A program made the translations under genes and the position numbers. Source: Pyropia yezoensis (taxonomy: Eukaryota > Rhodophyta > Bangiophyceae > Bangiales > Bangiaceae). Taken from it: 64,000 bases of DNA. Within the stretch, counting starts at the first letter, position 1, and each line of letters opens with the position of its first letter. The notes beneath the pieces were generated by a model. The model was not told the origin of the DNA. It ran no database searches and saw nothing but the letters and a program-made list of their open reading frames with translations. Where the stretch lies: the NCBI GenBank assembly GCA_009829735.1, contig CM020618.1:9763119-9827118 (forward strand), in the 5' to 3' direction. Shown here in pieces: positions 3,001 to 64,000 of this stretch.

Positions 3001-4687
3001 GGTGAGAGAGAGGGGTCGGGGGGGGGGGGCGAATAGATCGATCATGGAAGAAAAGGGTTCCAGAGGGCGAATGCGCGCAACCCTCACCAGCTCGCGGCGT
3101 GACCAGCGCAGTGGGTCTAAATCCGTGTGCCTTGAAAACTCGAAATCGGGCTCCACGCAGCTGTTTTTCATCGGTTCAGATCGCAATCAGCTGTTCCCAA
3201 TGCGCCAAGATCGGGGCGGAATTCTTGGAGGAGCACATTTTCTTCCCCAAACGGCACCAGATGTGCCTGCTGCAGGAAAGTTCCTGCTGCCTCGCACACC
3301 GTAATGTGCGTCTCATCAGCATTTTTGCGCCTAGGAACCGGGACCCGTGCCATGCCTGACGAAAAATCTGTTCTGGGGTGGTCTTGGGAAGAGGTGTTTG
3401 CACGTGGTCTGTTGTGTGACGTTTACTGCCACAGTCAAAGAGTTCGGAACTATGATTGAAAGCAGGTTTTTTTGTGGCAGAAGACACTGTTGCAGAAATG
3501 AATGTAAAACAGTGTCGAACAGTGCATCGATGAGGCAGGCGGATGACGTTTTGACTCGCGCGTCTTGTGTTCCATAAAAAATGCAAAACACTGTTGAGAC
3601 TTTTTTCTTTCCCTGGGGATGTGACCGATTGCTACACTTTTTACATGAGGAGAACGACCATGACGAGCGCGTCTTCATAGTCGAGAAAAAGCGACAAACG
3701 ACAATATCGCCAGCTCGTAGGCTCGCCTGAGCAAACTCTCTGCGAGGAAATCTGCCTTCACAGGCCTCAGGGGCCGCGGTGTAAGGCCGCGCGTCGCTGA
3801 TTCGGGCCCCAATCATCGTTTGTAAGGCACATGGTTTTAGTCCGACTGCGCAGGGAGGTCGCGGCGCCGTTGGCGGGTGCGTACTTGTCACGATTCGAGC
3901 GCTTCGCGGATACTTGTGTATTTGAAGTAGCTACGCGCTAGACTCGACTTCAAGCGTTAAATCTTCCGGTTCATCGGCGAACAAGAAGAGCTCTCCGAGA
4001 TCGATGAACGTTCAAGCATACGGGTATATGCGCTTGAATACTACGCGCACCTACACTTGAAAAAAGTAGGCTTGAGAACCCCTGGTATGCATCTTTTCAC
4101 GTTGTGCAGCATGGATGAAGCCCAAAAAATCATTAAAGTACATACAAGTAATCATAGTTACATTATAGACTAATCAGCTGCTTTCCCGAGGGTCAGGCCA
4201 AGTCCAGTAAAAGCCAATCGATTCAATGAAAATCGATATATTGTTGACTAATCCATGGATTAATCTATGTGAGATGTAAAAAATCTTCTTTTGTTCCACC
4301 CATGTTGTGCCCTTGCCACGACTCGCCATGTTACAGGAAGAAAATTGGGATCCTTTCTGCGAGCTGACATGCCGAAACTCCCCATTTTCAGAGAATAAAA
4401 GAGGCGTACAACACAGAGACAAGCGGAGAAGGGAGAAAACGAAAAGCACGTAAATAGAGAGCTCGTCGAGCTGCTTCGAGTTCTGCCATCAAACAACAAA
4501 TTTCAAGCGCCTTAAAAAGTTAGAAGGCTAAATTAGGGGGCCTCAAGTGTCAAAGTAGTTGCTTCAGGGATGGTGGAAACTTCTTGATCTCAGCTTCTTC
4601 GAAGCGAAGACAAAGAAATGTTTATGTACAGGGGATGAACAGAGTTCACGATAACCGGGAATTTGGGGCGTACCAAATACGCACGTA
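1..4687. other. No supported gene; gene-poor segment
   Basis: I find no reading frame here with a recognisable domain or convincing codon structure. The open frames are short, overlap in several frames and follow base composition. 2,440-2,830 is a CCG/CCC-rich low-complexity tract that gives Pro/Ala frames. 3,600-4,560 is AT-richer. The only organised structure is the inverted repeat at 3,091-3,866, listed separately. A short CCCC-AACTTA-GGGG hairpin at 357-370 resembles the hairpins found at the right end of the window. Confidence 0.5.
3091..3866. repeat. Diverged inverted repeat pair, MITE-like
   Basis: About 60 bp at 3,091-3,150 reappear as reverse complement at about 3,801-3,866. Shared blocks include GCAGT, CTAAA, TGTGCCTT and AAAC in the same order; I judge the overall match at about 65-70% by eye. 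The 650 bp between the arms hold no recognisable gene. The shape fits a small non-autonomous transposon or fold-back element. I did not find target duplications. Confidence 0.4.
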
Positions 4688-7661
4688 TTACTTATTTGTT
4701 CTTCCCCAGGGCGCGCACAAAGGTAGCAGACTACCACTCTCCCCATCCTCTGCAGCAGCTGAACCAAAGAAGTCGAGGTCGTCCTCGCTCATGTTGACGC
4801 CGTCCAGGAGCTTGAGGTTCATGTGCGCAAACATTAGCTTGGCCACCTTGTCATGGGTCAACCTGTTCCGGATGAGGGAGTGGATAGACTTCTGCGTTGA
4901 GAAAGACCTCTCCACAGCGCAGGATGACGGCACTGTAGCGTAATGGACCCCAGGTTCCCGAAACCACAAACCACAAACACTCACACAGAGACCACAGTCC
5001 GAAGCCCAGGAAGGAACAGGTAAGAGCCCTTGCTGATCCACTCGCCCGCCACGATACGAGGCAAAGGTAAACAGGACAAAAGCCCGAGGGAGAAGGAACC
5101 CAAAGCACTGTTGATTTAACAAGATGGCCCCGGGGAGAAACCCAGAGCACCCCTCAAGAACCTCCCCCCCTGGCCCCGCCAGGGGCCCAGAGGGAGGCCC
5201 CCAGAGGGCGCCCCCAGCGGGCCAAGTGCCAGCAAGGCACCGGCCGCTCACCGGGCCAACACACGAAAAGCAAGCGAAATCCCCCCCACACACAAACGTC
5301 GATCCCCCAAAAAAACCCAGTGGGAAAAAGGGGAAAGACACGGAATCACGCAAGGAAAATAAAAGCGAAAAATCAAGCAAATAACCCGAAGGTCAGTATG
5401 CCCCCAACCGGGCAAGTCCTCCGCTCCGGGGGAACCAATCAGGGCACCGGGCGTGTCGCCACTGCCCCGGGCAACCGATGCAGGGATCCCAAGCCAGCGC
5501 GTGGTTCCACGTAACGCTGCCAGCCGGGTCCCAAGTCAGCCTCCCGGGTCCCAACGGTACCTGAGGGCCACAACGCCAGACACCATGTCCACGAGCGCCT
5601 TCCAAATCTCGTGCAGGGCGGGCGTAGAGCCCCCAAAAGAGACACCACTAGCCCCACAGGTCCCATGGAGAGGCTACGACAGCGCGTGCGTCCACGATGG
5701 ATCCAGGAGTGCGCGCAGCATAGGCCCCTTTTATGAACGATCCAGACATCCCAGCGTAATGCGTGAACTCCTCCCGGAGGAGCTGCATGCACTGGTCGTC
5801 CGTTTTTTTTTTTTTTAGCCCCGTCAACTGCTCGGCCGAGAGTACGTGGGGCGAGCGCAAGAAGTACACGCGGATTGCCTCGAAGGAGCGCTCAACGTGC
5901 AGTGCCGCGTCAGGCGCCTGCGGGTCAAATACCTTCGGGTCCGAAGCAGCCGCCAAGTAGTGCACGTCCGTGAGAAACGGTACTCTAACCCAACGATCGA
6001 GAGGGCCCGACACCCGCTTTTGAATTGCGCGCATACTTGCTGAAAGACTGCAGGGGAGACAGTGCCGGCCGCCCCGGCCAAGCGCAGCTTTGCCTCCATG
6101 CCGGCCGTATCGGCCTGCCGCTTGCGGGTGGCGGGAAGTACGAGTGACAGGCGCATTCCTTCACCGTCAAACAACCGCAAGTACACGCACAGGGGGTCCA
6201 GCAATTGGCACAGCGCCGCCCAGTCGCGCGCGTCGGTTGCTGACGCAGCAATGCGCAGGTAGGCCGCCTGCGACTCTCGGGCTGCCTGGTCTCGTGCCTT
6301 GACAAGACGAGGAAGCTCCGTCCCGTTGTTGCGTTCAAGAAGGCTTCGCAGCGCAGGCCGGTTTCGGGCGCAGGCGAGCACCAAATCTCGGGTATACAAA
6401 AACCTTGTTGCACAGGGTGTCATGTACGCCACCGCCGTCTGCGTTGCTCCCGCGAACTCGGACGACAGGCCTTTGTTGTAGGCCACCTTTTCCAGCGAAT
6501 ACGCAGTCAGTAGTCGTTGATGGTTCGGCACTTATGCGGATACGGTCACGGCCGTCTGCTCGACGTTCCTCAACCAGTATATCGTGCACAGATCGCCCAG
6601 CAATAAGTTTGCCACATGGGCTTGGTCATTGAGAGACACAAGCCCGGGATTGTTGGCGGTCACCAGGCGCCTCATCCCCAGGCAAGCAGCGGCGTTGTCG
6701 GAGCCCACGGCGTTGAAGTAGGTCAGGCCCCCGTAGTTCACCAGCTTCTCTTGTAGCAGCCGCGCCTGCCCCTCCGCGTCCTGGCACTGATCTCCGCAGT
6801 ACACAGAATCCAGGAGTACGGCCTTGTCGCCGATGAAGGCCATAAGGTTGACGATAGGGTGGTGTGAGACGCTTTCCCACGCATCCAGGACCAACACAGC
6901 ATTCCGCCCCTGGCACCACAGCGTCAGCATGGCCATGACCCGCTCGGCAGTCATTCCATGCATCCCGATCAGCATAGGGCCCGCCACTTGCCGTCTCGTT
7001 GGCACCTGCTTGCGCGCAACTTAGCCAGGGCACAGTGCCTGTAGCATGGTCAGAAAGTACCGGCTCTCCACCGGCAGGAAAGGCACGCGGCACGCAACAA
7101 AGAATTGCAAGATAGCCGCGTCGATAGCGGCAGCCTACTCGTTTGACACGCGGTCAAGGCCACGAAGGCGGGAGGTCGAGGAATTGTCGACAGGCGCCGC
7201 CGCACGGGGATTGCTCGATGCGCTCCCATCCGCTGCAGTACACCCGCCTGACACTCTGGAGCCCGTGCGAGAACCACCGCCGCGGGGGTGCCCAGGAAGA
7301 GGCTTGCCGTTCTGAAAGGTCGTACAAGTCTCCCAGGCCATCAGCCGCACGGCCAGTGGGCTCGTCCTGCAGCTGTACATATGAGAGGCCAGGAGAGTGC
7401 CGTCTTCGTCTTTCCCAGCTTGTCGCAGTAGTTACAGACACCCCCAACGCCCGGCTGCAGCTTAAACTCCTGCTTGATTTCAGTGGCCTTGTGGCAAGAG
7501 CTGCGCCGTGCGGCGCTTGACGGCGGCAGATCATTGGCGGCACTCCCGGCCGCTCCGCCCCCGGCAACCCCGTCGCAGTCGTCGGCGCTTGCCAAGGAGC
7601 CGGCACGTCCCGCGCCCGCAGATCCCCCGCCGCCCGGTGGCGCAGCAGGTGGGCCCGCCAT
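4688..7661 (-). pseudogene. hAT-type (DUF659) transposase relic, copy A
   Basis: This is a decayed DNA-transposon transposase. In order on the minus strand: an Ala/Gly/Pro-rich N-terminus from an ATG at 7,661; a BED-like finger near 7,440 (VCNYC); the DUF659/RNase H-like segment at 6,532-7,005 with VLVLDAWES and the conserved LLDSVYCGDQCQD; the hAT core at 5,824-6,531 (TPCATRFLY, RNRPALRSLLER); and the C-terminal dimerisation region near 4,750-4,920 (SSCAVERSFSTQ, IRNRLT). The pieces lie in different frames, and stretches around 4,945-5,640 do not match hAT, so the gene is broken or contains introns. A clear relative lies at 58,510-60,490 on the other strand. Family assignment is fairly sure; exact exon limits are not. 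Confidence 0.75.
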
Positions 7662-53149: not shown

Positions 53150-56100
53150 AATTAAAGGCGGAATAGAAAATGTACAATGTTTTGCCATCCGTGCAACGGA
53201 GGACCGATGAGGCGTTGATTGTGGCGACTTCGCTCCTTCAAGGGGAGGCGTTCTCTTGGTAGCAGACGTATGCGGAAGAGTCCGACGTCACGGATTGGCC
53301 TACTCTTCGTGAAGCGCAGAGGCTGCGCTTCAACCCTTAGAACAGAGTACAGACTGCCGGCGATCTTCGGCACGAATGGAAGCAGACGACGGACGTCACG
53401 AGCTACAATGAGTCTTTCCAGTCGATTATCCTGGACATCCCCGACATGTCAATGGCGGAGAAGATCGACCGATACGTGCGGGGCCTCAAGAGCTACATCT
53501 GGTAAGCGCTGTGCCTCAAACACTACGACACGCTGGATGATGTAATGCGGAACGCCGTGAGCACGGAAGCGGCGAAGCGTGGTGTTCGTCGGGTCCCCAA
53601 CACTGAAGGTGCCGCAGCGGATTTGAACGGCTCTATCCCAATGGATATCACTGAAGTACAGATCGTCAAGCTCACGCCGGAAGAGCGAAAGCGCTGAAAG
53701 CGCGAAGGGCTGTGTCTGCGCTGCCGTGCCAAGAGTCACTTGGCCGAGGACTGTCCGAGAAGCCAAGAAAACTGAGGCCGAATGCGCGCCCTGAGACGGA
53801 CCCCGTTACCGGTCTCATTACCTCGCCTGCCTGTCACCGACCCCACTGAGACCTCCTAAGCGGCGATGAAATGGAGAATTCGACAATTATAAGAGCCTGT
53901 TGATGATGGTGCTTTGGCGAAGAATGTGTCGCTCTCACCTTTGTCAAGCACCTGAGAGTTCCCATGGGCTCCCCTCCCTTATGCTGAGCAGAACCACGTA
54001 CAACCTCATGTGAGCCCGATATCCCTCATACGTGTGCATCCAAGCCTACTACGACAACCCCAAGCTCCACAAGAGATCTTCGAACTGAGATCATGAACGC
54101 GAAGCAAGCACCTAGAAGAAATGACCGAAAGTGTCCTTTTGGACCGTCAAGGCGCCATCCTCGATGGCCTACCAGACAAGAATTCTCCCCGACCGCGGCC
54201 GGCTACCAATGGAGACCGCGCTGGTGGACGATGCCAAACCTCGCAAGAAAGGCAAGCTCCGAATATCTGAGTCGGAGAGCCAAGGCCTATTTGGCCAAGT
54301 TCCAGACCTAGTCGAGATGAGTTTCGCTCAACCCAGCATCCTTCGAACGTACCCGCAGCTTTCATGAATGTCGTCGCTCACATCTTGCGGCTTTTCATCG
54401 TCAAGTTTTTGAAGACGTACCTCAACAACATCCTCATGTAGGAGAGAAGGGCTCGGCTGGTCCGACACGTTCGACCAGTACCGGACAGATTAAGACAAAG
54501 TAAGACCTAAGTCAAGACATCCACGTGCAAGTTTGGTCGTGCTTCTGTCGATTTCTTCGGACACGTCGTCTCAGCAAGCGGCTTCGACACGGAGCGCGTC
54601 AAAACCGAGGCTATCCAGACTTGACCGAATCCATGACGTATGCGCGACGATAATTCGGGATTGTCGTCTGTTACGGTCGCCTGATCAAGGTCACTTTTGA
54701 CGGAGCTGACGAGTATAGTCGACTTCGACCGGACCTGTCGCCGCAAGGACGACTTCATTGCCCTCACAACGAGTTCCTGTACTACCGTAAGGAGCCCAAG
54801 TCTACTTGAGCACCGAAGAGTGCGTTGGCTGGATCCTGGAGCAAAATGAGTTCAAGATCGTACCATGAACGCTGTCGCTGTGCGCTCTTGCGTAGCATGA
54901 AAGTGCTGCTTTTCAAGCTGAAGCCAACACCGAGCTGCTCTCTCAGACGCTTGAAAGCGGAATCCCGATAAGCTCGGACGCAGACGAACGAGAGACTTCA
55001 AAATGGCAACGACAACCCAAGTATCTGAACAAACCCAAGCACAACAAGCAGCGCAAGAAACCCAGGCAACCCAAGGAGACTGAGTAATGAGGAACTCAAG
55101 CATCCCCAGCAACCCGAGCAACAACCATAGCAACCCAAGCAACGCAAGCATCAAGCAGCCTAAGCAAGACATGCACCTGTACCAAGCGAATCAATCCAAG
55201 TAACAAGCAACCAAAGCAACACAAGCAACCCATGCAACACAAGCAGAAAGCGGTCAAATACAATCGGTCTGCTGGAATTAGGGTCAAAAACTAAGAACGA
55301 CTTGACCACAATGGCAATCTCGCAACTTCCCAAGCTATCACCGACGACTCAAGAGCCAAGAACGACCATGCCACAATGAAACTCTCGCAACCTCACAAGC
55401 TACCCCCAAAGACACCCGAATCAAGTGCGAATGTGCTGCGATGGCACTCTCGCATCCCTTCAAGAAATCATGAAAGACCGATGAGCAAAGTGACCCTGAA
55501 GACAAGGATTTCCAACCGATCCACGACGTTACCCAGATCAATTTGAAGAAAGGTGAGCAAGCAGACCTTCGAGCCACTCACGCCGAAGACCCCGAACTGA
55601 CCGAAATCCTTACAAACCCTAATACTTCTTTCTAACGGGACGGCCCCGTCCTCATGAGGTATGCCCACGTTTGCATCCCAAGATGCCGCTTCCGTCGGGC
55701 CATCCTCCACGACCACCATGATACTCCAAGCAAGGGTCTCAAGGGAGTGGGCAGAAGAACCAAAGACCTCGTCACCAGGTTTTACTGGAAAACGACGTGG
55801 CAAAGGATCAAGGACTATATGCAGAGCTGTGACGCCTGCCAACGTTTCAAGAGCACTACCCAAGCCCCTTCAGGACTGTTGCAACGACGAGATCCTCCGA
55901 GCCGGCCATGGCAAAGTATCTCCATGGACTTCATCACGCCCCTTCCGGTGACTGCTCGCGGCCACAACGGACCGCTGGTCGTCGTGGACCGGCTCTCAAA
56001 GATGTTTAGACCGGCACCCACGGAGCCTGAGACAAGCGCAAGACGTGTCGCGCAATTGTTCCACGACAACGTCTACCGTACCTTCAGACTTCCAGTGGAC

Positions 56101-56994
56101 GTCGTCTGCGACCGAGACCGGATTTTTATATCTCAGTTTTGGCGCGGTCTACTGGACAAGATCAATGTCAAGCTTCGGCCATCCTCATCTTATCACCCCC
56201 AGAGAGACGGCCAGACCTAAGTCATGAATAAGAAGATCGAAGAAATCCTCCGATGCTTTGTGGACCACAACCAGAGCAATTGGGACATGTACCTTACGAA
56301 CGTGGAAGTCGCGTACAACCACTCCATCAACTCTGTGACAACCCACCCCCCGTTCTTCCTGACGCCCGGCTACGAGCCCAACGTCGTACCATTTGACACC
56401 CTGAGAAGCCTTAACGACAAGGTGCCCGCACTTGCAGAGTGGCTGACCGCTCTCCGAAAGGCACACAAGACCGCTGCTGACGCCATTCACAAGGCCAACG
56501 CTTATTGCTCTGAGTACGCCAACGAGTCAAGTAGGGACTGCCACATCTCTGTCGGCGACCTCGTCATGCTCAGTACAAAGAACCTCATGCCTGAGTCTTT
56601 TCAGGGGGCCAGGAAGCTCATGCCAAAATACTCCGATCCGTACAAGGCCACTGGGGCTGTAACATCTGTCACGTTTCGACTTGATCTTCCTCAAGCGGTG
56701 CTGGATCGCAAGGTTTACAAAGCCTTCCATGCTAGCTTGCTCAAGCTCTACCAAGCCGTCTCACGGTTCTGGCGATCCCCGGACCCGCCCCCTCCGATTG
56801 CTCTCGCTGACGGTTCTGAAGCGCACGAGATCAAACGCGTGCTCCAACATCGTACGCGTCGCGGTTGCTCGCAGTACTTGGTGAAGTAGAAAGGCAACCA
56901 CGACACCGAGAGCTCCTGGGTTTCCGCACGAGATCTCGATGCTCCCGAGCTTCTGGCGGCCTTCCACCCCACGACACGGGTTTAAGGGGGCGGA
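53150..56994 (+). pseudogene. Decayed Ty3/Gypsy retrotransposon with chromodomain
   Basis: Order gag-pol on the plus strand. Gag: KLTPEERKR followed by a CCHC knuckle at 53,713-53,755 (CLRCRAKSHLAEDC), with nonsense codons on both sides. Reverse transcriptase: the catalytic YxDD box survives only as YLNN at 54,418-54,438; after it FFGHVVSASGF and a stop where Trp is expected. A CAAGCAACC minisatellite (55,010-55,260) lies between RT/RNase H and integrase. Integrase, 55,654-56,220: a zinc-finger part (CDACQRFK), SMDFITPLP and VCDRDRIF, but a TAA occupies the position of the final catalytic Glu. The frame resumes at 56,224. A chromodomain (YLVK-stop-KGN) ends near 56,985. A purine-rich AAGGGGGCGGAGG then precedes TGTAAGG, a possible 3' LTR start. 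Clearly inactive. Confidence 0.85.
55010..55260 (+). repeat. CAAGCAACC-type minisatellite within the Ty3/Gypsy relic
   Basis: About 25 degenerate copies of a 9-10-bp unit related to CAAGCAACC/CAAGCAACA, between the RNase H and integrase regions. Just downstream, 55,291-55,345 and 55,361-55,412 form a further imperfect direct repeat (AAGAACGAC...CTCGCAAC...CAAGCTA). Confidence 0.85.
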
Positions 56995-58509: not shown

Positions 58510-60490
58510 ATGGACGTTGACAGTGCGGCAGGATCTTCTTCCGGCGAAGGCGTACCTGACGCGTTGGAGGACGCAGAACACGTAGACGCTACGGCGGGCG
58601 CTGCGGCCGCCCGGGCGGGCGCTGCGGCAGCACGGGCGGGCGCTGCCGCAGCGGCAGATTTGGCAGGCGCTAGACGTTCCGGCACCCGCTGCCAGCAGCC
58701 GTACGAGTGGCCGAAAGGCCAGTTAGACAAAGCTGGAGATTCAGCTGGGGCCTGGCTCCGGAGCGATCTGCAACCACTGCCAGAAGGAGGTCAAAAGCAA
58801 GCAACTGAACGGCACCATTTTGGCCAAGCATCCTTACAGCTGCCGTGAGAGCCCACTAATCGTGCGGCAGATGGCCTGGGGCTCGTGTACAAGGCTGCAG
58901 AAAACGAAGCCGAGACCCGTCAACCCCCACGCAGTCCATCTTTCATCGGAGGCCGACCCTGTGCGTCTGCCTGATTGCTCCTCGGGCGGCCCTACAAGTG
59001 GTCCTTCCTTGTCAACGGTTGGGGTCAGTGGTTCTTCTCCTGGCCTCCGCTACTTCTTTGATCACGTCAGCGTCCAGCAGAATGCCGCCATTGATGATTC
59101 AATTCTTCGCTTTTTCGTGGCATGTCGGATCTCATTCCGTGTAGCGGAGAGCACTGCCTTTCTCGCCATGCTGAAGGCCTTGCGCCCGGGCTACGTAGCT
59201 CGAAAGAGAGTGCCCACGAGAAGGCAAATGGCCGGGCCGCTTCTCACCCGGCTATATGAATTATTGATGGAGCACGTTATGCGGACGCTGTCTGTTTGGT
59301 GCTCACGCCGAAAGGCGGTGTTAGTGCTCGACGGCTGGGAAAACATCCGTCACAATCACATCGTGAACCTCATGGCCATCGTTGGCGGCGTGTCTGTCTT
59401 CTTAGATTCCATGTACTGTGGTGACGCGTGCCAGGACGCAAGCGGGCAAGCGCAGCTGTGGAGGAAAAGCTGCAGTTGTACGGGGGGCTCACTATCTTCA
59501 ATGCAATCGGCTCCGACAACACCGCTCCGTGTCTTGAGATACGGCGGCTGGTGACGGCCAAGAACCCATGGTTGGTCTCCATCAATGACCAGGGTCATGT
59601 GGCCAATTAAGTGCTGGGGGATCTCTGTAATATTCCATGGGTGGCGGGCGGCATCAAGGCGGCGGCGGTGGTTTCGTCATATGTTCGCAACCATCAACGG
59701 CTACTGGCTCCGTACTCGAACGAGAAGGATTTGTACAACACGACTTTGGGTTCTGAGGCGGCGGCAAAAAAGCGAACAGCAGTGGCTTACGTGACCCCTT
59801 GTACGACAAGATTTTTGTTTAATCGGGACATGTTACTTGCTTGTGTCCGCAACCGGCCGGCATTGCGAAATCTCCTCGAGCGCGACGACGGAGCCAAGTT
59901 GCCGCGACTCGTGAAGCCTCGGGACGAAGCCGCACGAGACGCGCAGGCCACGTTTTTGCGGGTGGCCGAGTCCGCCGCCGCAGCCCGCGACTGGTCGCCG
60001 GCGTGCCGCATCATGGACCCGGTATGCGTCTACCTGCGGTTGTTCGACGGCCAGAGCAGCTGCCTGTGTCTAGTGCTGCCAGCCACTCCCCAGCTGCAAG
60101 CAGAGATGGCATCGTTGGAGGTAAACTTGCGTGGCGGTGGCGTGGCGGGCACGGCCTCGTCCGTGGTGTTCTCGCAGGTTTTCGCTGTTATGAACAAGCG
60201 CGTGGCGGGCCCCAGCGATCGCAGCGTGCGGGTGCTGTTGTTGACAGACCTGCACTACTTGGAGGGGGCACTGGACCCGAAGGTGTTTGGCGCCCAGGCG
60301 GCCAATGCGGCCGACATCTTCGAGCGGTCTTGCCGGGCGATCAGCCAGTACTGTTTGAAGTCCCCGCAGGTGTTCTCCTCTGTGCAGGTAGAGGAGCTGT
60401 CTGATTACCAGCGCATGCAGCTGCTGAAGGAGGAGTTGACTTCGTACGCTGCACTCTCTGGTACGTTCGTGCAGGGAGCGTACGTGGTGT
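58510..60490 (+). pseudogene. hAT-type (DUF659) transposase relic, copy B
   Basis: Relative of 4,688-7,661. An Ala-rich N-terminus starts at the ATG 58,510. It is followed, after a frame change near 58,735, by a BED-like finger (ICNHCQKE...KHPYSC). Next comes the DUF659 region with VLVLDGWEN and FLDSMYCGDACQD (to about 59,450), another frame change, a TAA at 59,608-59,610, then the core TPCTTRFLF and RNRPALRNLLER up to about 60,490. The dimerisation region seen in copy A is missing; similarity stops at about 60,490, where the right-hand retroelement sequence may begin. Two frameshifts, one nonsense codon and a truncation make it inactive. Confidence 0.78.
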
Positions 60491-61302
60491 GGCAAAAACC
60501 ACTTACACACACGGCACCCAAGTTGGGGCGGTGTACAAGGGCTGCCTCCCGTGTCGGGGGAACCGGAAGAAGTGCAAGTCGCACACACTCTGTCCCTGTT
60601 GTGGGGCAATCCCCCCACTGACAAACAAGAGGATGGTGTGTGGTCCAACAGTTTCTTGGTCGGGACGGGGACGCAGGGCCAAGCCCCGCTGTCCCTCCCC
60701 TTATCCCCCCAGGGTCCCCTCAGAATCTCGCCACTCAGAATCTCCCACCCCAGCACCTGCCCACCGGGCCACACGAAAATTCAAGACGATAAATGCAGAA
60801 AAAGAAAATACCCTCAAATCCAAGTTGGATTTACTACTAAGCTAACTATCCCAAACTTAGGGAATATGGACCCAAATGCAGGGGGAGGAACGGGTCAGGC
60901 TAGTGGCCTGCCGCCCCTTGCATGGCACGTGTTGCCCCCCTACCTGGGGGTCAATACTGCCACACTCCCCTCTCCTCAGTTCCGACCGACCTGGTCGGCC
61001 CTGTGAGGGGGTGCGTAGACGCACGCCTCGGCGTTTGGGGCGCGACTTGCTGTCCCCCCTTGAGTACGTAGCGCGGATGTGGAGGCGGTAACGTTGACCG
61101 CCCCTCTCCTCAAGCTTGCCCACTCGGCAGCTTGCTCTCCTCAGTTCACACTTCACCATCACCACCACCTCCCCTTCACCTTCCACTGGGCCGCCTCACG
61201 CTGGGGAGGCCACCCGTCTACCCACGATCTGAGTCCCCCTCAACTCGAGGCGGGTATCATGCCGCTGTAGCCAGGGCGGCTCTCCCCAACTTGGGGAGAG
61301 CC
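60491..61302. other. Terminal noncoding region of the right-hand Ty3/Gypsy-type element
   Basis: No gene is seen. Hairpins occur at 60,816-60,832 (AAATCC-AAGTT-GGATTT), 60,849-60,863 and 61,083-61,101. Given the minus-strand pol at 63,358-64,000, this is where its 3' LTR would lie, but without the other LTR in the window I cannot mark the ends. Confidence 0.35.
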
Positions 61303-63975
61303 ATGGCGACCCCGGGAGTGGAGACGGACTCTCTCGACGAACGTATGGAGGACACCTCCTACGGTGCGGCGCCCGCCGGGACTTCCGGCGGGGGCTCCGC
61401 GATCGCTCCGGGGGATGGGACTCCCGCGTCACCCGGCTTTGGGTTGACGGCGGGATCTCCCCCGGAGGCGGGACAAGTTGTCCGTCGTGAGGCGTTGGGG
61501 CGGTGGTTTTACCCCGCTTGGCCTCCATATGAGGAGGGGTTGACTGTTCTCCGCTGGGGCCGACTTGGCGCAGAGGTGGGTCGGGTATGGGACCGCCTAC
61601 GGGAGAAGTACCCCCGTAGGGTCGGGTTCCCTGCCGGCTTCAGGACGGACCAGTTTGCCTTCCTGGACGAGGACGAGGTCGAAGACGTGCAGCGTGCCAA
61701 GGCCATGGTGGACCGCGGGGGAACTACCCCGGGTCCCAGCGACTTGCCGACTTTTACTTGGGACGCTGTGGCAACTCGACCCCCGTACCTTCACGAGGTC
61801 GATCTGCACACTCATCACTTTGATGTGCGGATGGAGAAAGACTTCCGGCGAGGTCCCTACTTGGTGACCTCGGCTCAACTTGAGTTTCCGCAGCAGTCCG
61901 CTGCTAGTAAGGAGTAGGACTACCCCAAAAAGCCCGAGTGGTGGCCTCAAGTTGAGGTCCCCTACGGGTTCCCGGCGTTGCTGCCACGGTTGCTTGACCA
62001 CTTCGGCTCCGTCATGTTGACGGCTCGCCCTGATCACCTGGTGTGGGCCATGTTGGCCACCCAGTGGCTCCTCGAGGTCATGTCGACCTGGGTGTCTTGT
62101 GTTCAGCGGCGGGGGATGCTCTGGCATCTCCCCCTCCGGCTCCTCCAAGGTTTGGAACAGCTCACCCCTCAGCTAGTTGCTGAGGGGTGCTCATCAGGAC
62201 AACTCACTCTACTTGAGGAGATGCTCCGGCTCCATAAGTTTATCGAGTGGGAGAGCATTGAGCACAAGTTGCGCCGCCCCACTCGTGGGCCCAAGGACGA
62301 TGGCACACTTCGCCAGTTCGTGTGGGTCGCTCGTGAACTTCACGACGGCCGTGTGGTCCTACGAGAGGGGTTGGGCATCGGGGACTACCCGTATGCCCCG
62401 GGGGTGGATCGCCACACTGCGCCACCCCCGGACAAGCCCATAGTTATGGCCGTGCCCTCACATGATGATCATGTGACTCAACCCACTGCGGGGGCCCCAT
62501 GTCGGGGTCGCAGTTACACCCGGGTACCGCCACCTCGGCGTGCCCCTCCGCTTCCTCCTGTCCCCTACCAGCCGCACGGGGACATCCCGATGAGCGTGGC
62601 CGTTGAGTCGTCCACCCCGGTGTCCCCCAACTTGGGGGCCACCCTCCTGACGGTATTTCCCAAGTTGGTGTTACCGCCCACGCCTCTAACCTCAGAGATG
62701 ATGATCACCACGTTGGTGCGCACCATTTCCTGGCTGGCCGGGTCGACCGCAACCCTTCAAAGTTCCGAGACTCCTCAACTTGAGGAGCGCGTTCGTACTG
62801 CAGTGGCGACCGCGAGTTGCGAGTCGGTGGCGGAGTTTATGACAGCCGAGTTGGCTCGCATTGGGGCTATTATGCCCCAGCCAGCCCCACTTGGGCGTGG
62901 CGAACGTCGCGCGAGCCGGGCATACTCGCCTCCTCGCCGTCGTCGACGACACTCTCGGCGCTCTCCCTCCGTGTCGGAAGACGAGTTGTCTTACTCCGTC
63001 TCGGAGTCCTCTACCCCGTCAGAGTCGGAGTCGGTCTGGCGTCTGCGTCGCCAACTTGCGCGCAAGACTAAACAGAAGGGTAGCCGCGGTCGTCGCCACT
63101 TGCGCGACCGTGAGGGGCGCGACGGTTCCGACTTGGAGCCGCCGCCCACGCCGACTGGTGGGGAACGTCATCGGCGTGGGTCTCGCCGCTCGCCTCCACG
63201 TGAGGGCAAGGGCTGTGGGGTTGGAGAGTCTAGCATGCATGCCTAGTTGGCAGCTGCCCTTGATGTGAGAGTGTGAGGGTTAGGGCTGTAGTTAAAAGCC
63301 ACTCTGCGTACCACTTCGACTTGAAGCACTCTCTTCGCACTGTTGCTCGGCCTTCCCTCACGTTGAGGGAGGGCTGTTAGGGTCTATCTCATTCCGGGCA
63401 CAGTACGCCCGGACCTTCTCAGCGGGAAGGTCCTCCACATACTCCCACGTATCATCCTTGGGTTTGTAGCCAAACCAACGCACCCTCAACATGAGGCGGT
63501 CAGTGTCTTCATCCCATCCGTGGTCGATGAACTTATCGAACACGTACTCCTGCGGGCCCTGTTTGGCCGCAGGCAGTGAGGGGAGGCGCCACGCTTCCAA
63601 AGCACGCGCCCAAGCTGGGTCGCCTGCAGGCGGTGGTGCAACTTTGACCACGTCCTGTCCGTTCACTGTGCGGACCCCATCGTCACTTTCGATGGTGAAG
63701 CGCCGCCCATCAGTACGAAGGACCTGGTACGGTCCCTTCGTCTGGAATACCAGCTTACCCCCCGTTGGGGTGTGCGAGTGTACCAGCACCCAGTCACCCT
63801 GCTCGGGGACATGTTTAGCATTGCGCACCTTTTTGTCAAAGGTACGCTTGTAGCGCTTTCGTGCTTTGTCCATCTCAGCCCTGACTTTAGGGATGAGGTT
63901 TTCAAGCCTAGCGGCGAACTCCGCCTTACTCTCAGTAGGAGTAGGCGTACTGCCACCATCCTCCCTAGTTGGGAG
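60816..63975. repeat. Family of variable-stem, NASTT-loop hairpins
   Basis: Stem/loop sites (stem bp, loop): 60,816-60,832 (6, AAGTT); 61,238-61,250 (4, AACTC); 61,278-61,302 (10, AACTT); 61,471-61,483 (4, AAGTT); 61,849-61,872 (9 with one bulge, TACTT); 61,943-61,959 (6, AAGTT); 62,163-62,189 (11, TAGTT); 62,331-62,345 (5, AACTT); 62,624-62,638 (5, AACTT); 62,771-62,787 (6, AACTT); 62,844-62,856 (4, GAGTT); 62,884-62,896 (4, CACTT); 62,978-62,992 (5, GAGTT); 63,123-63,141 (7, GACTT); 63,314-63,326 (4, GACTT); 63,350-63,374 (10, ACGTT); 63,524-63,539 (5, GAACTT); 63,757-63,771 (5, CCGTT); 63,913-63,925 (4, AACTC); 63,961-63,975 (5, TAGTT). Stem sequences are unrelated; loops are nearly constant. 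Confidence 0.85.
61303..63246 (+). CDS. Additional ORF of right-hand retroelement, in-frame TAG
   Basis: The ATG at 61,303 directly follows a perfect 10-bp hairpin. The frame runs 204 codons to a TAG at 61,915-61,917 and then stays open in the same frame to the stop at 63,244-63,246, 648 codon positions in all including both stops. The first part is acidic and Gly/Pro-rich. The middle (HLVWAMLATQWLLEV, LRLLQGLEQLTPQLV) is helical-looking. The last 110 residues are Arg/Ser-rich and basic (YSPPRRRRRHSRRSPS), suggesting nucleic-acid binding. No known family. It is tail-to-tail with the minus-strand pol end. LTR retrotransposons with an extra antisense ORF between pol and the 3' LTR are known in plants, and this fits that position. 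A gag-like structural protein is possible. The TAG may be decay or readthrough. Confidence 0.5.
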
Positions 63976-64000
63976 CGACCGCCGCACGGCAATAGACCGC
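63358..64000 (-). CDS. Ty3/Gypsy pol C-terminus with chromodomain (partial)
   Basis: Minus-strand frame open from the window edge to a TGA at 63,358-63,360; the N-terminal part lies beyond 64,000. It shows the basic integrase C-terminal segment (RKRYKRTFDKKV, GDWVLVHS, GPYQVL) and, in the last 60 residues, a chromodomain (LRVRWFGYKPKDDTWE). Such chromodomains steer integration of chromovirus-type elements toward modified histones. The visible part is intact, unlike the relic at 53-57 kb, and not a close copy of it. The stop codon lies inside a 10-bp hairpin (63,350-63,374). Confidence 0.85.
   Translation of the reverse strand, partial: RSIAVRRSLPTREDGGSTPTPTESKAEFAARLENLIPKVRAEMDKARKRYKRTFDKKVRNAKHVPEQGDWVLVHSHTPTGGKLVFQTKGPYQVLRTDGRRFTIESDDGVRTVNGQDVVKVAPPPAGDPAWARALEAWRLPSLPAAKQGPQEYVFDKFIDHGWDEDTDRLMLRVRWFGYKPKDDTWEYVEDLPAEKVRAYCARNEIDPNSPPST

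Follow-up and report, generated by a model that had tools for sequence, protein, structure and literature searches.

What leads a retrotransposon to carry dozens of perfect hairpins whose stems differ from site to site while the centre of the loop hardly changes? The question is raised by a 64,000-nucleotide stretch of the 107.5 Mb genome of the red alga Pyropia yezoensis (C1:9763119-9827118, here called the window), at the right-hand end of which such hairpins cluster within a Ty3/gypsy long terminal repeat (LTR) retrotransposon of about 9.4 kb. An initial annotation of the window had described about fifteen hairpins with a near-constant NASTT loop between 60816 and 63975, and estimated that well under one should occur by chance. 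Both statements hold, as this 3.2-kb region contains exactly 15 perfect NASTT hairpins whose stems reach 4 bp or more, compared with a mean of 0.10 (maximum 1 in any of 200) in dinucleotide-preserving shuffles, of which 200 were made for the region, 200 for the element and 20 for the remaining window. Three more have the loop AASTN, the reverse complement of NASTT, and counts of core-loop hairpins below take either form where stated. With any 5-nt loop and the same minimum stem there are 54 perfect hairpins, against a shuffle mean of 15.4 (maximum 28). The cluster is real but is not confined to the 3.2 kb originally described: 31 NASTT hairpins are found in 8.9 kb of the element (0.26 in shuffles, maximum 3), and they run through it with empty stretches in pol at element positions 4501-5500 and 6001-6500. 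The other 59.5 kb of the window holds one, with 1.4 expected. The observation itself is confirmed and is larger than first described.

A stem of 11 bp around TAGTT is at 62163-62189. This single 27-nt hairpin has 2184 genomic places at up to two mismatches, with none for a reversed control pattern, and the window family must therefore be very large. A 10-bp stem enclosing AACTT (61278-61302) is of that length only in the window copy and measures 8 bp in seven of the eight copies that cover it; an 8-bp stem encloses GACTT (61372-61392), and 6-bp stems enclose AAGTT within the LTR (60816-60832) and AACTT at 62771-62787. Stems of 5 bp flank AACTT (62331-62345 and 62624-62638), GAGTT (62978-62992) and TAGTT (63961-63975). 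The 4-bp stems surround AAGTT (61945-61957 and 61471-61483, the latter with a 6-bp stem in four of seven copies, the window copy included), GAGTT (62844-62856), CACTT (62884-62896), TAGTT (63240-63252), GACTT (63314-63326), AACTC (61238-61250 and 63913-63925) and AACTA (61718-61730).

That chance, base composition, codon usage or amino-acid repeats could produce these hairpins is a reading to which we give practically no weight. Shuffled controls, proposed in the initial annotation as the check to make, gave nothing comparable whether dinucleotides or codons were preserved, and chance and codon usage were rejected on this basis. In codon-preserving shuffles (200 for each of five coding pieces, counting NASTT or AASTN hairpins) the observed and expected numbers were 5 vs 0.14 and 7 vs 0.26 for two parts of an additional antisense open reading frame (aORF), 2 vs 0.10 for the end of pol in the window, 8 vs 0.29 for a pol piece of the next copy and 6 vs 0.27 for gag. 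All three codon phases contain hairpin centres, and the LTR has one of the hairpins.

The constant part of the loop proved to be narrower than NASTT. Although 15 hairpins fit that motif, the better invariant is the three-base centre A[C/G]T, with no constraint on the outer base at either end of the loop, which describes 55 NASTN hairpins in the element (two of them, in the LTR, counted twice): 14 are AASTT, 12 have only the outer A, 18 only the outer T and 11 neither. The closing pair is C-G in 34 of the 55, in agreement with the original description of the loops as mostly closed in this way, and C-NASTN-G heptamers are extended into stems of at least 4 bp in 34/77 cases in the element against 0/106 in window positions 1-60000. 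Single-change loop variants such as ACGTT, ATGTT and AACAT are present too. Loop lengths of 3, 5 and 7 nt are raised (86, 127 and 88 vs about 41) and those of 4 and 6 nt less so (57 and 73 vs about 42), as AASTT forms the middle of an odd palindrome. The loop has no clear strand orientation, neither in its outer bases, as seen from the counts above, nor in its centre (ACT 33, AGT 22).

Pieces of six other LTR copies were compared (L0xx labels denote further genomic copies or pieces; L010, L020 and L025 are copies of the window family). L048, L051 and L052 belong to one family, 97-99% identical. L049 and L050 were also hairpin-rich, with a different geometry, stems of 5 bp or more being in excess at loops of 0-5 nt in L050 and of about 3-12 nt in L049, and neither has a clear centre motif. 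The window element is enriched in 1-nt loops, and L050 in loops of 0-2 nt. In L049 there are 95 hairpins whose stems reach 6 bp or more and in L050 43, vs 25.8 and 13.9 in codon-preserving shuffles; each rich family has 44-59 such hairpins in 5-8 kb, distributed over gag and pol and, in the window family, also over the aORF. Relative to dinucleotide shuffles, 6-bp hairpins were 2.4-5.8-fold in excess in the rich families, 2.1-2.2-fold in L047, 0.8-1.3-fold in L048, L051 and L052, 1.8-2.0-fold in the 5 kb containing the left-hand Ty3 element of the window and 0.9-2.1-fold in other 5-kb window stretches, so that the contrast between rich and poor is one of degree, but clear. In protein comparisons the window element, L049 and L050 are mutually nearest, with 47-57% identity over the reverse transcriptase (RT) and 36-40% between the integrase piece of the window element and those of L049 and L050, and L047, L048, L051, L052 and the left-hand Ty3 element form another, much hairpin-poorer group. 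Hairpin richness is thus a clade trait in the families read. The left-hand element (55654-56889) is 55-58% identical to L047, L048, L051 and L052.

Further afield, no DNA relatives were confirmed in viral contigs, and contigs of prokaryote genomes gave only Ty3-like elements of 27-31% identity, four of the five serving as rough controls. NASTT or AASTN hairpins were absent from these controls (L059-L062), although perfect hairpins in L061 are about 3-fold above shuffles and a modest excess is therefore not unique to Pyropia. L059-L061 are contigs of an uncultured Trichormus metagenome-assembled genome that encode a Ty3-like pol, and are likely eukaryotic contamination of that genome.

Hairpin density was conserved between the rich families; positions mostly were not. 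When pol of L049, L050 and the window element was aligned by protein, one side only had changed in 46.6% of 916 hairpin pairs and in 47.6% of 98,624 isolated complementary pairs. Breakage is equally frequent in the two sets, which means that most hairpins are family-specific, and site-by-site homology between families was mostly absent. The initial annotation had pointed to a constant loop with covarying stems. This is true between the sites of one element, but across copies at one site it is rare, compensatory change in core pairs accounting for 1/213 pair comparisons of L025 with L053 and L054. Between families there is a weak signal: where both bases had changed, 75/162 pairs were still Watson-Crick vs 34.6% in the control (p = 0.003), with pairs nested and counted in both directions. 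Codons in pol hairpins were as conserved as others when compared with eight homologous proteins (0.60 vs 0.57).

The pairing itself does not favour one strand. Perfect 6-bp Watson-Crick stems were 4.3-7.6 times enriched in the three rich families, and stems with one inner mismatch reached 1.36-1.83 times expectation for G.U, 1.48-1.99 for A.C and 1.10-1.56 for others; there was no preference for G.U over A.C on the sense strand of these families, and RNA selection on a single strand was rejected on these tests. An early hint, 15 A.C vs 5 G.T among broken core pairs, did not clearly exceed the imbalance that the same changes show in the background (85 vs 54 among private substitutions of old copies, and 9 vs 2 in a further count). 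Folding of transcripts, another check put forward in the initial annotation, was computed in 80-nt windows, which are more stable than shuffles on both strands of the window element: mean z scores (sense/antisense) were -1.27/-1.35 for the window family, -1.04/-0.87 for L049 and -0.96/-0.52 for L050, the last being more structured on the sense strand, compared with -0.56/-0.30 for L047 (intermediate), -0.08/-0.29 for L048 and -0.03 for a window stretch. The kept feature looks strand-symmetric, namely Watson-Crick symmetry and not any one stem sequence, because pairing shows no wobble preference, the loop is unoriented and folding scores are lowered on both strands of the window element.

Evidence for selection came from comparing copies of the window family. 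Four old copies (L053, L054, L057 and L058; 84-92% identical to others) were compared with seven young ones. In about 2 kb the old copies have 8, 5, 10 and 4 NASTT or AASTN hairpins respectively and the young copy L025 has 17; 26 of the 27 old-copy hairpins are also present in L025, as judged by eye. Decay of stems without compensation, which the initial annotation had named as evidence against its reading, is therefore true of the old copies, but conservation shows in the replicating lineage alone. Fixed differences between young and old copies avoid core-loop stems (3/184 vs 105/1535 columns, p = 0.003), also at third codon positions (1/64 vs 73/471, p = 0.0008), whereas private changes are not reduced there (35/184 vs 255/1535); nor do fixed changes avoid hairpins with other loops (3/74 vs 105/1645). 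Among 33 young copies (two array neighbours excluded), variants shared by at least three copies were scarcer in stems of at least 6 bp, with hairpins defined from L010 (1/378 vs 96/4371, p = 0.007), L025 (2/442 vs 95/4306, p = 0.007) or L020 (2/419 vs 95/4329, p = 0.01), while singletons were equal in and out of stems and hairpins with loops of 14-20 nt showed no difference; with all 35 copies the values were p = 0.0009, 0.02 and 0.08. A pooled third-position test (25/212 vs 429/1632, p = 1e-6) was set aside for the column test and is not relied on, as it counted the L025 branch several times. As fixed changes and those shared among young copies avoid stems and private or single-copy ones do not, the constraint seems to act during replication, in the replicating lineage and not in dead copies. 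The suggestion of selection for RNA or DNA structure made in the initial annotation thus receives modest support, although the undivided test described below was not significant.

We tentatively propose that selection maintains the hairpins as a dispersed structural code in one red-algal Ty3/gypsy clade, most likely as redundant binding sites for an element protein. Each family read keeps tens of small perfect inverted repeats across gag and pol, to which the window family adds those in the aORF; in that family they are built on the fixed centre A[C/G]T and mostly closed by C-G. We infer both the existence of a protein that reads them and its identity: the candidate is the nucleic-acid-binding protein of the element, either the zinc-knuckle Gag or the basic protein of the aORF, which may act at a step where it packages or condenses element nucleic acid, by a logic perhaps comparable to that of dispersed viral packaging signals. 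In a more specific form, which we advance with greater reserve, the code would be strand-symmetric, with a centre or loop geometry of each family's own, re-evolved elsewhere in the same genes, kept by selection and probably co-evolving with a family-specific reader. A number of results weigh against the proposal. A lack of preference for G.U would be unexpected in RNA packaging signals, and compensatory changes are almost absent within the window family. The zinc knuckle is present in the hairpin-poor clade too, and its possession therefore does not explain the trait. Variants shared but unfixed between old and young copies were no different in core stems (8/184 vs 95/1535, p = 0.41), core hairpins alone were not significant among the young copies (p = 0.32, 0.25 and 0.07 with 33; 0.10, 0.21 and 0.10 with 35), and the undivided test, counting each variable column once, was not significant either (35/184 vs 341/1465, p = 0.23); the division into fixed and private changes was devised after that result. 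The evidence for selection comes from one family in one genome.

An alternative that we consider unlikely, while taking it seriously, is that the hairpins are made by the polymerase: the RT of this clade would fold back and copy one arm from the other, making or repairing palindromes, and loops would reflect enzyme geometry. Template switching has been published as both maker and keeper of perfect hairpins (PMC8794818) and may account for perfect 6-bp stems being so much more enriched than stems with one mismatch of any kind (1.1-2.0 times), for the fairly abrupt ends of stems in L049 and L050, and for a trait that follows the RT clade. It has also been proposed for palindromes in the mitochondrial genes of Nematomorpha, where, as here, many perfect inverted repeats lie inside conserved coding sequence (PMC6649704), although these mitochondrial palindromes are long, averaging 43 bp, and the available passages do not mention a fixed centre. 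Many double Watson-Crick changes between relatives would however be expected of this process (PMC8794818), and they are almost absent from the window family: none was found among 16 fixed pair differences or among shared variants, the only cases being in single copies (one in one comparison, one core and two other-loop in another), and the signal between distant families is weak. In the fixed pair differences a single side has changed, and within one hairpin such changes fall on both arms. Stem ends in the window element are not fully abrupt, as pairing just past them is raised (38, 40 and 34 of 105 vs about 0.26 at random). Mutation that perfects palindromes, the second process considered in the initial annotation, is not supported as the means of maintenance, and selection on a strand-symmetric structure fits better, with modest strength; as a whole, the initial interpretation is partly supported.

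Two other readings concern the molecule on which the hairpins would act. General structuring of the RNA could shield transcripts from RNAi or decay, with loop motifs secondary; we think this improbable. It would agree with the stable folding of 80-nt windows in rich families relative to L048 and with a density conserved where positions are not. Genome-scale ordered RNA structure, an excess of local folding across the replicating genome, is a property of persistent RNA viruses, and the window element resembles it in its excess of local folding. It differs in its fixed A[C/G]T centre, which such structuring leaves unexplained, and in its equally structured strands, although L050 is more structured on the sense strand; the preference for G.U over A.C anticipated of a functional one-strand RNA hairpin is lacking in the rich families. 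The inverted repeats could instead work as double-stranded DNA or cruciforms, for example in chromatin, integrase action or recombination, as the unoriented loop, the pairing without wobble preference and the enrichment of very short loops would allow. However, stems of 4-6 bp extrude poorly, we are aware of no protein that would recognise a constant centre between arms of any sequence, and this role seems to us more doubtful still.

Dispersed packaging signals are among the closest parallels to the proposed binding sites. In hepatitis B virus (HBV) they are RNA hairpins with RGAG loops, three of which are named (PMC7612645), and further systems are described in satellite tobacco necrosis virus (PMC3593212) and enterovirus (PMC7793301). 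Several genome-wide hairpins with a common loop motif are shared with the window element. Packaging signals would be expected to have one loop orientation on the packaged strand, and to be bound by a coat or Gag protein with an effect on assembly; the element has no clear orientation (12 vs 18, 33 vs 22), and its stems are perfect and without wobble preference at about 50 sites, against the three named for HBV. A literature search, with most subscription papers outside reach, returned nothing that describes hairpins of this kind for LTR retrotransposons.

Three Ty3/gypsy units with common LTRs form a tandem array (window 60488-64000 plus L009-L011; unit 8916-8919 bp), which has the cluster region at its left end and stops near C1:9850825. 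The LTR at this left end (60488-60964, minus strand, 477 bp, TGTGGCA...TGCCACA) begins where LTRs of other copies match, at 60488. Gag, with a zinc knuckle, and pol, with RT, integrase and a weak chromodomain, are on the minus strand, and the 3' end of pol with that chromodomain occupies 63358-64000 and continues past the window edge. LTRs, zinc-knuckle Gag, RT, integrase and chromodomain place the element among Ty3/gypsy LTR retrotransposons of chromodomain type: in a Pfam profile search of L010 pieces zf-CCHC, RVT_1, Integrase_H2C2 and rve were above cut-off, with Chromo (22.7-24.3 bits) short of the 25.1 required. L049 and L050 gave an RNase H match, which the L010 pieces searched did not. 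Rfam gave no match in the window at gathering score.

The convergent reading frames noted in the initial annotation are real. The aORF (61132-63246, plus strand, start codon uncertain) lies between pol and the 3' LTR, convergent with pol; its frame is interrupted here by TAG at 61915-61917, and most of the 99 listed matches have an open frame of 724 aa. Differences concentrate at the third codon position (98/892, 64/916 and 220/889 background differences by position, four comparisons pooled), and the aORF thus behaves as a protein gene. Its tail is Arg/Ser-rich, one database homologue was found (94% identical), a Pfam search gave no match and the predicted structure of the homologue P0121 was uninformative (mean pLDDT 40.8). 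An extra antisense ORF is known from Grande, RIRE2 and Retand as well (PMC7264820), alike in its orientation and in lying between pol and the 3' LTR; the available passages mention no hairpins. Elsewhere, L015:1-2850 and L012:8690-9991 form another element-like sequence with a 728-aa open frame, of which L015 1-2850 is LTR-like, lies beside two copies and contains palindromes in which even centres outnumber odd ones (45 vs 23) and are often CA/TG closed by G-C; L012:1-3042 is a GC-rich flank with many perfect inverted repeats, in part from simple CCGGCG-type repeats.

If an element protein reads the hairpins, about 50 natural versions of a single recognition hairpin would be available from the roughly two thousand genomic copies of the window family, and comparing them could reveal the logic of dispersed packaging-type signals. 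If the polymerase makes them instead, a reverse transcriptase would here have left a clear natural trace of its template switching. Either answer bears on how coding sequence can hold a second, structural code.

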